64,000 nucleotides of DNA. Source: a virus. A program made the position numbers and the translations under genes. The notes beneath the pieces are model-generated. The model was not told the origin of the DNA, did no database searches, and saw only the letters and a list, made by a program, of their open reading frames with translations. The stretch is taken from the IMG/VR virus record IMGVR_UViG_3300037346_000419, positions 1 to 64,000 of that record, one strand, 5' to 3'. Positions 26,381 to 30,978 of the stretch are shown in pieces (positions within the stretch are counted from its first letter, which is position 1; every line of letters starts with the position of its first letter).

Positions 26381-27274
26381 TTAAAAAGGTAAATCTATTG
26401 GATTAATACTATTAGTACTGCTAGAATCAATAGGGTCAATTCCAGCTATATATGCTGGATGAGGTAGATTTATATTATTAATATCATCAGAAAGATTATT
26501 AGATATTATATCTGAATTAAAAAAGCTATTTATTGCATCACTATTTAAATTCATTTGAAATAACGCTTTTTTAATTTCTTTAAGTTTACTTCTTTCTGTG
26601 TCTCGAAATGACAAAACAACTAAATTTTCTTCTTTACAAAAATCAGATAATATATCATTTTCAACTATATTGTTTAATTCTGTTATACTATTAAAATTTT
26701 CTTCAAAACCTTTTGAAAACAACTCTTCATCTATACTTTTTGTACTTTTAAATTGTACTGAAATACCTTTTTCATAACAACTATTTATTAAGTCTTTTTC
26801 TACTTTTTTATAAAAACTTTTATATATAGGATTTAATAAAAACTCAGTTGCTACAAGTAATTTAAAATATTTATATATGGGGACATCATTATCAAAAATT
26901 TGGTTTCTTTCATAATTTTTACAACACAAAATTAATAAGATGTTTTCTTTATCATCTAAAATAGAATAGTGACCTGAAGAAATTTCAACATCTTTCCCTT
27001 GAACTTTAAATCCATATTTTCGTATTCTATCTTTATATTTAAAGTTTTTTAAAAATTCACTATAAGTTTTTGTTTTATAAAATCTAATACTTAAATGTTT
27101 ATAATAAAATTTAATATCAGTTAAAACAGGAAGAAAAACTGAGATGTTAAAAGGGCTTATATACATAGTATCATCACAAATTGTATAATAAGGCATATAT
27201 TCTCCCAAACTTTTCACTCCTATTTTTAAAATATCAGGGTGTGCTTGAGCATCATAAATTTTGTCTATAATCAT
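26381..27274 (-). CDS. Unknown protein linked to the ubiquitin-like cassette (297 aa)
   Basis: Not recognised. It has strand-rich sequence in the first 130 residues with a CC pair (LLILCCKNYERNQIF), helices in the middle, and an Asn/Ser/Asp-rich, low-complexity C-terminal tail. It overlaps the E1-like gene by 4 bases, so it is translated with it and may be a substrate, partner or extra enzyme of the conjugation system. Confidence 0.55.
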   Translation of the reverse strand: MIIDKIYDAQAHPDILKIGVKSLGEYMPYYTICDDTMYISPFNISVFLPVLTDIKFYYKHLSIRFYKTKTYSEFLKNFKYKDRIRKYGFKVQGKDVEISSGHYSILDDKENILLILCCKNYERNQIFDNDVPIYKYFKLLVATEFLLNPIYKSFYKKVEKDLINSCYEKGISVQFKSTKSIDEELFSKGFEENFNSITELNNIVENDILSDFCKEENLVVLSFRDTERSKLKEIKKALFQMNLNSDAINSFFNSDIISNNLSDDINNINLPHPAYIAGIDPIDSSSTNSINPIDLPF

Positions 27275-27957
27275 GATATAACATTTGTATATGTGACTGG
27301 AATAAAAAACTCATAAAAAAATGGTATATCCCTAACTTTTTCTCTTTCATGAATATTTGTTAAATGATTTGTAAAAAAAGCTGTCATTAAAGAACCTATC
27401 ATTGCTGCACAATGACTTGTCTGTTTTAATGTGCATGGTGCATCTTCTACTTCATCATCATCAAAAAGATATTTTTCATACTCTTCAATTTTATCTGGAG
27501 TCACACAAAATATTTGTAATTGTTCTAATTCCAATCTACCATCTATGAAAATAGGAGTTACAGGACAATTAGGAATACTTTTTTTCCAAACTTCAAACAT
27601 ATCTTTTCTAGCTTTCATATTATCAAAAGCAGAAAACATAAAATAATGTGTAGGAGAATTTCTATCAATTTTTTCATTAAAAATATGAGGTGTTTTACCA
27701 CAAAATTCATAAATAATATTACTAATAGCATTTACTTTTGGTATGCCTAAATCTTTTACTTTAAACATTTGACCTCCCATATTATGTTCTTCTATTAAAT
27801 CATCATCATAAATAACACAATTATTTCCTATTCTACTAAGAAAAAAACTTAACCATGTGCCAATACCTCCTGCACCCCCTATCATTACTGTTTCAGGATT
27901 TTCAGAAAACCATAAAGCATCTTTAAATCTATTATACTGCGCTTCCATATTCTTCAA
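27271..27957 (-). CDS. E1/ThiF-like activating enzyme
   Basis: Adenylates the C-terminus of a ubiquitin-like protein. Seen: nucleotide-binding MIGGAGGIGTW at residues 25-35, YDDDLIEEHNMGGQMF at 50-65 (the Asp and Asn-x-x-x-Gln of ThiF/E1 adenylation domains), and APCTLKQTSHC with candidate catalytic cysteines C175 and C183. At 228 residues it is a minimal adenylation domain. It overlaps the JAB gene by 26 bases and the 297-residue gene by 4. Confidence 0.88.
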   Translation of the reverse strand: MKNMEAQYNRFKDALWFSENPETVMIGGAGGIGTWLSFFLSRIGNNCVIYDDDLIEEHNMGGQMFKVKDLGIPKVNAISNIIYEFCGKTPHIFNEKIDRNSPTHYFMFSAFDNMKARKDMFEVWKKSIPNCPVTPIFIDGRLELEQLQIFCVTPDKIEEYEKYLFDDDEVEDAPCTLKQTSHCAAMIGSLMTAFFTNHLTNIHEREKVRDIPFFYEFFIPVTYTNVIS

Positions 27958-29182
27958 ATTTTTGTAAGAAAAACTTTATTGCTAATTTTATTTTACTAAC
28001 AACTTTATATTCTATTTCTAACTCTTCAAGTTCTTCAACTATACGATTTGTAATGTAAATAAAATTTTCATCGTCTTCTTCTTCTGTAAACATATTTTTA
28101 TATAAAGGTACAAAATTCTCTAATATTTGTCTACAAATTTCTTCTATTTTTACTGCTCCAATTGTCACATTTAATTCTAAATCTTCTAAAACATCATCAA
28201 TAGTTTTTGTATCATCTTCTTTAGTATTAGTATAATTTAATAAAGCATAAATAAAATCTTGTATTAAATCTAATTCATCTTCTTCTAAAAAAGTATCATT
28301 ATCAATTTCTTCAAAATCTATGTCATCAACAAATTCTTGAAATAAATCAATTTGTTTTTTATTTGTAGTGACAACTTTTGTTAAAGGACTATTAGGAATT
28401 ATAGGATTATTTGGGATAATGTTTGCAAAACCTTTAATAGGATTTCTATTTTGAGGAGGAAAAGTTTGAACATAAATAGGTTTTTCAGCTTTCTTTATAA
28501 TAGCTTCTACTCCTTCTTTAAATTCTTGATTAACTATTATTTCTTCTTGTTCAGATATAATGTCACAATTATAAATAAATAATTTTTCTTTTTTAAATTT
28601 TAAATCTTCTTTAGATATTGTATATTTTTTACCATTTTCATCTAAAGAAATATATGGTGTTTTTGTAATATCTTTTTGTATAGCTCCTCTAAAAGCAACT
28701 TTAGCTTCAAAATCCATATAGTTATTTACTATTAAAGAAAGATAAAAATTGTGAGAATCTGAATTATCATTTAATTCACTCATATCTGTTCCAGAGAAAA
28801 AAACATTCATTGTATTGTGGCTATGTATATGCCCAATTTTCCAATTCATTCTTTCTTCATCTTTCATCATATAATCTACAAATCTATTATCAAATTCGTA
28901 TTCTGTAAAAGCTTGTGTGCCTTTATCCATTGGTAAAATATCTCTTATAATAAGAAGCATATTTTCGGGTTTTCTTATAGAGCCTATTATTTCATAAAAT
29001 AATATTCCTGACCACTCTACCTTTGCTATTTTTTTACACAGGTACTTGATTTTGAATAATATTTCTTTGGATATTTCTAATTTTATTCTCTTTTCTAATT
29101 GCTCTATTGACAACGACTTGTTTATATAAATGTTGTTCGAGGGCATTACTTGCGGATTTTGTGTATTTTGGTAATAATTCAT
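27932..29182 (-). CDS. JAB/MPN+ metallo-isopeptidase
   Basis: The full JAMM zinc motif is present: E56 (VEWSGI) and H-S-H at 120-122 followed by seven residues, S130 and D133. Enzymes of this family cut after the terminal glycine of ubiquitin-like proteins or remove them from targets. The acidic C-terminal half (residues 285-400) is rich in Asp/Glu and not recognised. Its start overlaps the upstream E2-like gene by 149 bases; no ATG occurs between residue 13 and the domain, so at least about 110 bases of overlap look real. Confidence 0.88.
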   Translation of the reverse strand: MNYYQNTQNPQVMPSNNIYINKSLSIEQLEKRIKLEISKEILFKIKYLCKKIAKVEWSGILFYEIIGSIRKPENMLLIIRDILPMDKGTQAFTEYEFDNRFVDYMMKDEERMNWKIGHIHSHNTMNVFFSGTDMSELNDNSDSHNFYLSLIVNNYMDFEAKVAFRGAIQKDITKTPYISLDENGKKYTISKEDLKFKKEKLFIYNCDIISEQEEIIVNQEFKEGVEAIIKKAEKPIYVQTFPPQNRNPIKGFANIIPNNPIIPNSPLTKVVTTNKKQIDLFQEFVDDIDFEEIDNDTFLEEDELDLIQDFIYALLNYTNTKEDDTKTIDDVLEDLELNVTIGAVKIEEICRQILENFVPLYKNMFTEEEDDENFIYITNRIVEELEELEIEYKVVSKIKLAIKFFLQKFEEYGSAV

Positions 29183-30275
29183 ATTTTACTTTTATTTCTT
29201 CTTTTGTTTCTTGTTTTTTTTCATAAACTTTAAAATCTATAATTTTACTTCTAAAAATTATAGAAGGAATTAAATTTTGATTTTTCAAATCTTTATTTAT
29301 TTCTTTTACGTTTTCTTTATAATCATCTTTATTAAATTGATAGTATATATCTTCTATTTTTGTTACAATAAGATTTTTTATATTGTCATAATCAAACTTT
29401 TTAATTATATTTATTATTGTGTTTTTAAAATTATCATTTATTATAAATTTAAGACTTCTATTTTGTACTATAACACGTAAATTTTTTATATCATTCTCAT
29501 TTATATTTTTAATTAATTGAATATTTACTATATTAAACATATTTTTAGCATCAGTTCTATCTATTGATATACTACTACTTTCTGCATTTGTTATAACATC
29601 TCTCATTTTTATATGGGGGCCACCTTCTAAGGATTCCCAAGATAAATAGTTATCTAAAGTAATAATAAATAATTCAAATGCTTCAGGAGTACATTCATTT
29701 CTATTTATAGATATTATATCAGAAATTTCACTTTCTCCATAACAAAAACTTGAACTATAAAAATTTTTATTATATTTATAACTCATTGTATTAGTATGAG
29801 AGTGTCTATAAGCATTGTGAAATTCTTGTTTATTAACTGATAATCTAATACCTTTAAAATCTTTAAAAAAGATGGATGAAGTAAATTTATGTATAGGTAA
29901 AACTATTAATAAATCTTTTATAAGATGTTCTTCTTCTACACTATTTTTAATTGTGATAGAAGGATATAATATAAAAATATTTATTTGTATAGAATTTATT
30001 AAAGTATTATCTTGCTTATTAGAAAAATTATCTATAATACTTAAATTAATATCCCAATTATCTTTATGATGTGCATTTAAAATTGGAGTAATTAAATTTA
30101 TAAAATTAGAAAATCTTATTTTATTTCTAACCCCTATACCACATACATAATCTTTTTGTATTAAAGTTTTTAAAAAATTTATGTCTCTTGATTTTCCTGA
30201 TTTGTTCCAATTATTGCATAATTTAATAATTGTATTTTCATAAGTAGTTCCTATTGTGTTTATATTTAACTGCAT
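29034..30275 (-). CDS. E2-like (UBC/RWD-fold) candidate conjugating enzyme
   Basis: Residues 98-225 show a UBC-like order: strand FILYPSITIKNS with the YP turn, KGIRLSV, an HSH motif at 158-160, SFCYGESEI with candidate catalytic C178, and ESLEGGP. That pattern recalls the divergent prokaryotic E2-like proteins found next to JAB and ThiF genes. The N-terminal 95 residues and the basic C-terminal tail are not recognised. It lies between the ubiquitin-like gene (43 bases and a terminator hairpin upstream) and the JAB gene (overlapping). Assignment rests on motif order and context, so it is moderate. Confidence 0.6.
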   Translation of the reverse strand: MQLNINTIGTTYENTIIKLCNNWNKSGKSRDINFLKTLIQKDYVCGIGVRNKIRFSNFINLITPILNAHHKDNWDINLSIIDNFSNKQDNTLINSIQINIFILYPSITIKNSVEEEHLIKDLLIVLPIHKFTSSIFFKDFKGIRLSVNKQEFHNAYRHSHTNTMSYKYNKNFYSSSFCYGESEISDIISINRNECTPEAFELFIITLDNYLSWESLEGGPHIKMRDVITNAESSSISIDRTDAKNMFNIVNIQLIKNINENDIKNLRVIVQNRSLKFIINDNFKNTIINIIKKFDYDNIKNLIVTKIEDIYYQFNKDDYKENVKEINKDLKNQNLIPSIIFRSKIIDFKVYEKKQETKEEIKVKYELLPKYTKSASNALEQHLYKQVVVNRAIRKENKIRNIQRNIIQNQVPV

Positions 30276-30285
30276 AATTTTTTAA

Positions 30286-30303
30286 AGGGGTGTTTCCACC
30301 CCT
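30286..30303 (-). terminator. Hairpin terminator or attenuator inside the ubiquitin-like cassette
   Basis: Stem AGGGGTG / CACCCCT with a 4-base loop, followed on the - strand by TTTAAAAAATT. It is among the few GC-rich stretches here. It separates the ubiquitin-like gene from the E2-like gene and may make more of the former. Confidence 0.75.
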
Positions 30304-30318
30304 ATCTAATTTGTTTTT

Positions 30319-30978
30319 TTAAAAACCTTTATTAATTTCTGCTAATTCTCTAGTTAATCTTTCAGTTTCTTCTCTGTCATCAATAGCTGCTTGGGCTGAC
30401 TCAGAATTACTATAAGTTTCAATTAAATTTAACACTCTGTTATATTTTCTTGAATCTACTAAGTCTTCCCAAGCTGTTGTCAAATCATTTTTATCAATTA
30501 CTAAAACAACTTCTGCTAGATTATTCTCAACAGAAAGAATAGCTAAAGAAGATTGAGAAGGACTAATTTGTTCTGAAACTGCTTCTGGCTCTGGAGTTTG
30601 AGTTAAATTGTTAAAATAGTTTTTTAAATCTAAAGTTGAACATTGTGTCCAACTAACTTTACAGTTGAATTTAGCCACTCCAATTTTATCAGCAGGACTT
30701 AGTTGATTTCTTAAATCATTATAATTCATATTGTTATAATCTACTCCAGATTTAGTTTTAATAGGACTGATAAACAAAGTAAAAGCTGTAGTAGGCAATA
30801 TTGCTATACTACTTTCTAAACTTGTTCTATTTACACTTTCTAAAGCTTTGAATTGATTCATATCAAATCCTTTATTTTCTACAACACTTTTCAATTCACC
30901 CCAAGTTGTTGCTGATGATTGAATTTTAATTTTTTCACCTTTTGTGGTGAATATGGTGATTTCTCTTTCGTTACTCAT
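30319..30978 (-). CDS. Ubiquitin-like (beta-grasp) protein with C-terminal extension
   Basis: Residues 5-78 fit a beta-grasp fold: REITIFTTKGEKIKIQ (beta hairpin), TTWGELKSVVENKG (helix), then FTLFISPIKTKSG. The latter resembles the end of ubiquitin-like proteins in phage and PRTRC-type cassettes. A further 140 residues follow the SG at 77-78, including a Pro/Ser linker and a helical, charged tail ending NKGF. The extension could be a pro-sequence removed by the JAB enzyme or a fused second domain. It is first of the cassette. Confidence 0.75.
   Translation of the reverse strand: MSNEREITIFTTKGEKIKIQSSATTWGELKSVVENKGFDMNQFKALESVNRTSLESSIAILPTTAFTLFISPIKTKSGVDYNNMNYNDLRNQLSPADKIGVAKFNCKVSWTQCSTLDLKNYFNNLTQTPEPEAVSEQISPSQSSLAILSVENNLAEVVLVIDKNDLTTAWEDLVDSRKYNRVLNLIETYSNSESAQAAIDDREETERLTRELAEINKGF

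Follow-up and report, generated by a model that had tools for sequence, protein, structure and literature searches.

Bacterial ubiquitin-like protein (Ubl) systems are known chiefly as anti-phage defences and as uncharacterised plasmid cassettes. Here we describe a set of five adjoining genes that belongs to a phage, found in a 64 kb stretch (positions 1 to 64,000, hereafter the window) of the 81,326-base IMG/VR virus record IMGVR_UViG_3300037346_000419. The genes encode an Ubl, an E2-like conjugating protein, a JAB peptidase, an E1/ThiF-type enzyme and a protein of 297 amino acids (aa), and we put at roughly 0.7 the probability that together they form a phage-encoded, reversible Ubl-conjugation pathway. 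We take the cassette to be a phage-borne variant of bacterial Ubl conjugation that most likely acts in the replication phase.

The PRTRC-type cassette is apparently that of row 6d of Iyer et al. 2006, and its E2 was reported to lack the classical upstream His and to carry a downstream one (PMC1779556). On plasmids, its order is ParB-E-C(Ubl)-F-B(E2)-A(JAB)-ThiF. In the Bil system (BilABCD), BilD joins inactive and active adenylation domains to a Cys domain, BilB carries a CEHH motif and BilA has two Ubl domains (PMC11354881). Phages themselves encode an Ubl and a JAB in the lambda-type tail proteins TAPI/TAPK, for which cleavage after glycine was proposed (PMC1779556). The cassette described here shares with PRTRC the order Ubl-E2-JAB-E1 (C, B, A, ThiF), apart from the missing F, and with Bil the placing of Ubl, E2, JAB and E1 on four separate genes, with an Ubl that would be matured by the JAB. 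With TAPI/TAPK it has in common an Ubl and a JAB encoded by a phage, although the latter stand in a structural gene context without E1 or E2. It would work like PRTRC and Bil, yet is assignable to neither.

Results

All five open reading frames (ORFs) were located on the minus strand where an initial annotation of the sequence had placed them (Table 1), together with the residues it had named, i.e. SG at 77-78 of the Ubl, Cys178 of the E2-like protein, E56, H120, H122, S130 and D133 of the JAB, and GGAGGIG and Cys175 of the E1. The E2 and JAB reading frames share 149 nucleotides (nt) in the window (29034-29182), the median overlap among relatives being about 100 nt, and the JAB and E1 genes overlap by a median of 4 nt. 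A first scan of IMG/VR with the E1 sequence as query gave 29 loci and a second one with the E1 alignment gave 80; gene order was identical in 29 and about 80 loci, respectively, and cultured phages of Flavobacterium keep it too, as does Bacteroides phage crAss001. Searches with hidden Markov models (HMMs) detected E2, JAB and E1 in 84/84 sets examined and the Ubl in 79/84; in two further sets (L029 and L077) the Ubl HMM had passed over a small ORF resembling an Ubl, and two others (L015 and L074) are truncated within the E2 gene. Identity to the window proteins is 20-42% for the Ubl, 16-27% for the E2, 19-47% for the JAB and 32-68% for the E1, and across this span of 16-68% the proposed catalytic residues, counted over unique sequences, are unchanged. 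Chance origin is far exceeded, since the order recurs in 29 and about 80 loci and the named residues are invariant.

Table 1. Positions of the cassette features in the window
Feature	Position	Strand	Basis or remark
Ubl gene	30319-30978	-	219 aa
Ubiquitin-like beta-grasp domain, residues 1-78, ending K-T-K-S-G	30745..30978	-	AlphaFold2, Foldseek, G78 conservation
C-terminal tail of Ubl precursor, residues 79-219	30319..30744	-	AlphaFold2; terminal G[FYLMW]; 1 residue in 8 relatives
Ubl-E2 hairpin, probable partial terminator or processing hairpin	30286-30303	-	-13.2 kcal/mol, z -3.8
E2-like conjugating protein, 413 aa	29034-30275	-	Invariant residues, AlphaFold2 element order
JAB/JAMM metallopeptidase, 416 aa, divergent C-terminal region	27932-29182	-	Full JAMM motif
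Minimal E1/ThiF-type adenylating enzyme, 228 aa, TTG start	27271-27957	-	Pfam ThiF 4.2e-10, GGAGGIG
Fifth component, 297 aa, fast-evolving, acidic/aromatic C-terminal tip DLPF	26381-27274	-	Homologue in 57 loci

The initial annotation had made its Ubl call depend on a beta-grasp fold, and such a fold was found over residues 5-72, matching ubiquitin, SUMO and UBX. The AlphaFold2 model of the 219-aa protein has a predicted local distance difference test score (pLDDT) of 91-97 across residues 1-70, with strands at 5-11, 16-21, 43-47 and 66-72 and a helix at 26-35, and those three folds led the Foldseek matches in PDB (E 2.4e-4, probability 1.00), target template modelling scores being mostly 0.6-0.7. 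Gly78 is present in 68/68 sequences, as is Ser or Ala at position 77. In eight relatives (L014, L024, L068, L071, L077, L086, L087 and L091) the Ubl stops one residue past the glycine, so that trimming by the JAB after SG is strongly implied; these eight short Ubls are the strongest single argument for an important C-terminus trimmed by the partner JAB. Gly78 is accordingly predicted to be the C-terminus of the mature Ubl, exposed after trimming. The tail of the window protein is modelled as partly disordered, then helical, with a charged helix last. It is worth noting that the long tails in the window (30319-30400) and in relatives finish in a charged helix with a terminal G-F/Y/L/M; a terminal G[FYLMW] is carried by 29/51 long Ubls versus 4.5% of the other proteins from the same loci.

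The JAB call holds. In fact, the JAMM residues are invariant (E56 and H120 in 73/73 each, H122, S130 and D133 in 74/74), the protein scores 2.2e-7 with PADLOC JAB, and PRTRC_A is the best NCBIfam model, in 9/19 members. Likewise, the E1 assignment is upheld both by Pfam (Table 1) and by a match to the PRTRC ThiF profile at 98.5%, and its own profile finds the E1 domains of SUMO, UBA5, ThiF, MoeB and Cap2 in PDB. Two thioester cysteines had been put forward for this enzyme; Cys175 (codon 27433-27435) is invariant (70/70), as are D112, K74 and N59, but Cys183 is not conserved. R10 is conserved, and the sequence has no zinc CxxC pairs.

In the 413-aa protein, H160, C178, G180, E214, S215 and G218 are each found in 73/73 sequences, giving the pattern HSH...FCxG...WES, in which the candidate catalytic Cys178 (codon 29742-29744) has His160 upstream and WES..G downstream. 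Its AlphaFold2 model (pLDDT 77) orders a helix (49-70), four strands (74-82, 94-110, 116-131 and 134-148), a loop with HSH and Cys178, and two helices (183-193 and 197-211). A helix, four strands, a Cys loop and two helices make up the element order of the UBC domain, and from this topology and the motif we infer that the protein is probably an E2. Foldseek searches of the model in BFVD matched significantly other uncharacterised viral proteins, some of them from crAss-like phages. Neither Ubl families for the Ubl nor UBC families for the E2-like protein reached significance in Pfam, NCBIfam or PADLOC, searched with single members and, for Pfam, also with whole alignments; PDB sequence searches with the Ubl, E2 and JAB profiles returned nothing useful.

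The hairpin noted earlier after the Ubl gene is real and, moreover, positionally conserved. A gap between the Ubl and E2 genes is present in every locus (median 65 nt). Stable hairpins (z < -3) occupy 53/60 distinct Ubl-E2 gaps versus 25/125 other gaps of the same loci, and terminator-like hairpins 45/60 versus 21/125; the Fisher p-values of 2e-19 and 2e-14 overstate these differences, as related loci are not independent. The position is kept while the hairpin sequences are unrelated, and in the window itself the T-tract is short. Since the hairpin comes after the modifier gene and ahead of the enzyme genes, its conservation suggests that it keeps the Ubl in excess over the enzymes.

The fifth protein had been annotated as unknown, and searches of protein families and of PDB brought up nothing notable for it. 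A homologue was detected in 57 loci and stands immediately after the E1 in 57/57, so it belongs to the cassette. The acidic/aromatic C-terminal tips of this protein (window 26381-26430) and of some relatives (DLPF, NLPF, EDLPF) recall the C-terminal peptide of single-stranded DNA-binding protein (SSB).

The flanking genes are a primase upstream (phrog_12622, 1e-81) and a RusA-like resolvase on the other side (phrog_244, 3e-8), which bears out the location in a replication block that had been proposed at first reading; the primase lies upstream of the cassette in 78/78 testable loci. Elsewhere in the window lie terminase, portal and major head genes, identified by their matches to PHROG families. 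Among the neighbours examined there were no thiazole, molybdopterin or cysteine genes. Ranked by E1, the named phages nearest to the window are the Fpv phages of Flavobacterium (68.8% identity), followed by crAss-like phages, the E1 of crAss001 being 32% identical to that of the window; megablast against phage records found no near-identical phage. When about 85,000 genomes of bacteria and archaea were scanned with the E1 profile, a single weak match came up, in Paenibacillus, and thus no close cellular source was found.

The resemblance to PRTRC, which had been noticed from the outset, stands for the gene order and the E1, is weak for the JAB, and is undetectable by profile for the Ubl and the E2. 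The phage E1 is clearly related in sequence to PRTRC ThiF, with which it shares a minimal architecture and an aligned cysteine (98.5-98.9% by hhalign), and PRTRC ThiF was among the nearest E1 relatives in a plasmid search; the phage JAB appears weakly related to the PRTRC JAB. Profile comparison gave 58% for JAB-A, and 1.5% for E2-B and 1.0% for Ubl-C, the last two not being significant, although the best PRTRC profile score of each phage protein was with its positional counterpart. Both E2s have C-x-G followed by a conserved Glu, but the phage E2 carries His160 upstream of Cys178 in 73/73. Further differences are the tail of the phage Ubl, predicted to be cleaved, the extra gene after the E1, which is unlike PRTRC F and E, and the location in a phage replication block. 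Scans of the neighbours with Pfam and PHROGs turned up neither ParB nor proteins E and F. Membership of PRTRC was rejected, the scores being 32.8 bits against a cut-off of 144.75 for ThiF (TIGR03736) and 14.2 against 101.8 for A (TIGR03735). On the Aeromonas plasmid pS121-1b (L035:2353-3507), a DNA polymerase III beta-clamp gene lies within a PRTRC-type cassette, a hint of a replication link for such Ubl systems.

Membership of Bil was rejected as well, as the E1 architecture, the E2 motif and the Ubl domain count all differ. The phage E1 is a single 228-aa ThiF module, the E2 lacks the CEHH motif and has HSH...FCxG...WES with an upstream His instead, and the Ubl consists of one beta-grasp domain with a helical tail rather than two tandem Ubl domains; PADLOC found no match to Bil components.

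The jumbo Xanthomonas phage PhiXhv-15 (PV764602.1, L092:3709-7588) encodes a member of the same E1 family, which likewise does without the NxxRQ Arg discussed below; Erwinia phage Ep032 and two further Xanthomonas phages carry this E1 at 99% identity or more. Next to it in PhiXhv-15, by eye, are a candidate Ubl of 141 aa ending in KASGG and a candidate E2 of 893 aa with HPH..SLCLG, C-x-G and a Cys-rich C-terminal extension. This set differs in that no JAB was seen and in adjoining topoisomerase genes.

Discussion

Several observations weigh against a Ubl-conjugation pathway acting in replication. The Ubl terminus is SG or AG rather than GG, and no E3 was identified. In the E1, Gly or Asn (Gly in the window) replaces in 72/72 sequences the NxxRQ Arg of the aligned PRTRC ThiF and MccB, so that the adenylation chemistry is perhaps unusual or the Arg is supplied elsewhere. 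The E2 call stood as regards the invariant H160 and C178 and the UBC-like element order, but Foldseek matched its model (predicted template modelling score 0.65) to no solved UBC structure in PDB. The link to replication comes from gene position. The missing Arg could also speak for a degenerate or decoy operon, made of gene remnants without conjugating activity; with the other catalytic residues invariant across 16-68% identity, this is very improbable. A sulfur-carrier or small-molecule pathway, in which a ThiS/MoaD/CysO-like Ubl is activated by the E1, trimmed by the JAB and donates sulfur to tRNA, to a nucleotide or to some metabolite instead of to proteins, would suit an E1 of minimal ThiF/MoeB size, and JAB and Ubl occur together in bacterial sulfur-transfer operons too (PMC1779556). 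Nevertheless, we consider it unlikely, as every set includes an E2-like protein whose His and Cys are invariant, a component that sulfur carriers can do without, no rhodanese or biosynthetic partner gene was seen among the neighbours examined, and zinc CxxC pairs are lacking from the E1.

In Bil, the Ubl becomes attached to a tail protein of the phage, to the benefit of the host, and perhaps a phage could similarly tag its own structural or packaged proteins. Yet the cassette sits in the replication block, apart from the structural genes, and in crAss001 the replication module is expressed in the middle phase and the structural genes late (PMC10136315), which leaves structural tagging with a slim chance. 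Counter-defence or host takeover, where host defence or regulatory proteins are tagged, or where the JAB strips host Ubl conjugates (Bil, CBASS) from virions, is doubtful, though it comes next after replication targets. Bacterial Ubl systems do act against phage (PMC10097602; Bil reviewed in PMC11354881), and a phage-borne, strongly conserved cassette would be in keeping with a reply to them; however, the retention of all four catalytic parts indicates more than a stray deconjugase, in all loci where this could be tested the cassette lies within the core replication block and not in variable accessory regions, and Bil components were not matched.

In the Ubl-conjugation pathway that we favour, the Ubl would be made as a precursor that the JAB cuts after Ser77-Gly78, as the invariant Gly and the relatives stopping one residue later suggest. 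Judging by invariant residues and known enzyme families, the minimal E1 would then adenylate the new C-terminus, probably holding the Ubl on Cys175, and the E2-like protein may accept it on Cys178, assisted by His160, and pass it to target lysines, from which the JAB could also remove it. The hairpin probably holds the Ubl above enzyme levels, and the fifth protein, always following the E1, probably plays an accessory part or guides the choice of substrates. The cassette keeps its place between the primase and the recombination genes, and on this ground we tentatively propose that its likeliest targets, midway through infection, are phage or host proteins that take part in replication or recombination. 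Eukaryotic PCNA carries both ubiquitin and SUMO, a loose parallel for replisome tagging. Perhaps, and this is more speculative still, crAss-type phages run a replication-phase ubiquitin/SUMO-like pathway that, with the Ubl in hairpin-driven excess, puts reversible tags on proteins of the replisome or of recombination and has JAB-less relatives in jumbo phages.

Until now, the cassette has carried the wrong labels: 'thiamine biosynthesis', unknown or hypothetical. In crAss001 it is formed by gp79, gp78, gp77 and gp76 (L037:5286-9696), deposited as hypothetical, hypothetical, metalloprotease and thiamine biosynthesis protein, respectively. Neither the crAssBcn isolate paper nor the Crassvirales review (PMC10136315) mentions ThiF or ubiquitin, and searches of the open PMC literature found no paper tying crAss-like phages or Crassvirales to ubiquitin, an earlier description being possible in subscription papers or preprints, which lie outside that scope. 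Here the proposed pathway belongs to the phage, as a conserved core part of the replication block, and the group that shares it counts crAss001, a cultured human-gut phage, among its members. Such a pathway bears on the diversification of Ubl pathways outside eukaryotes.

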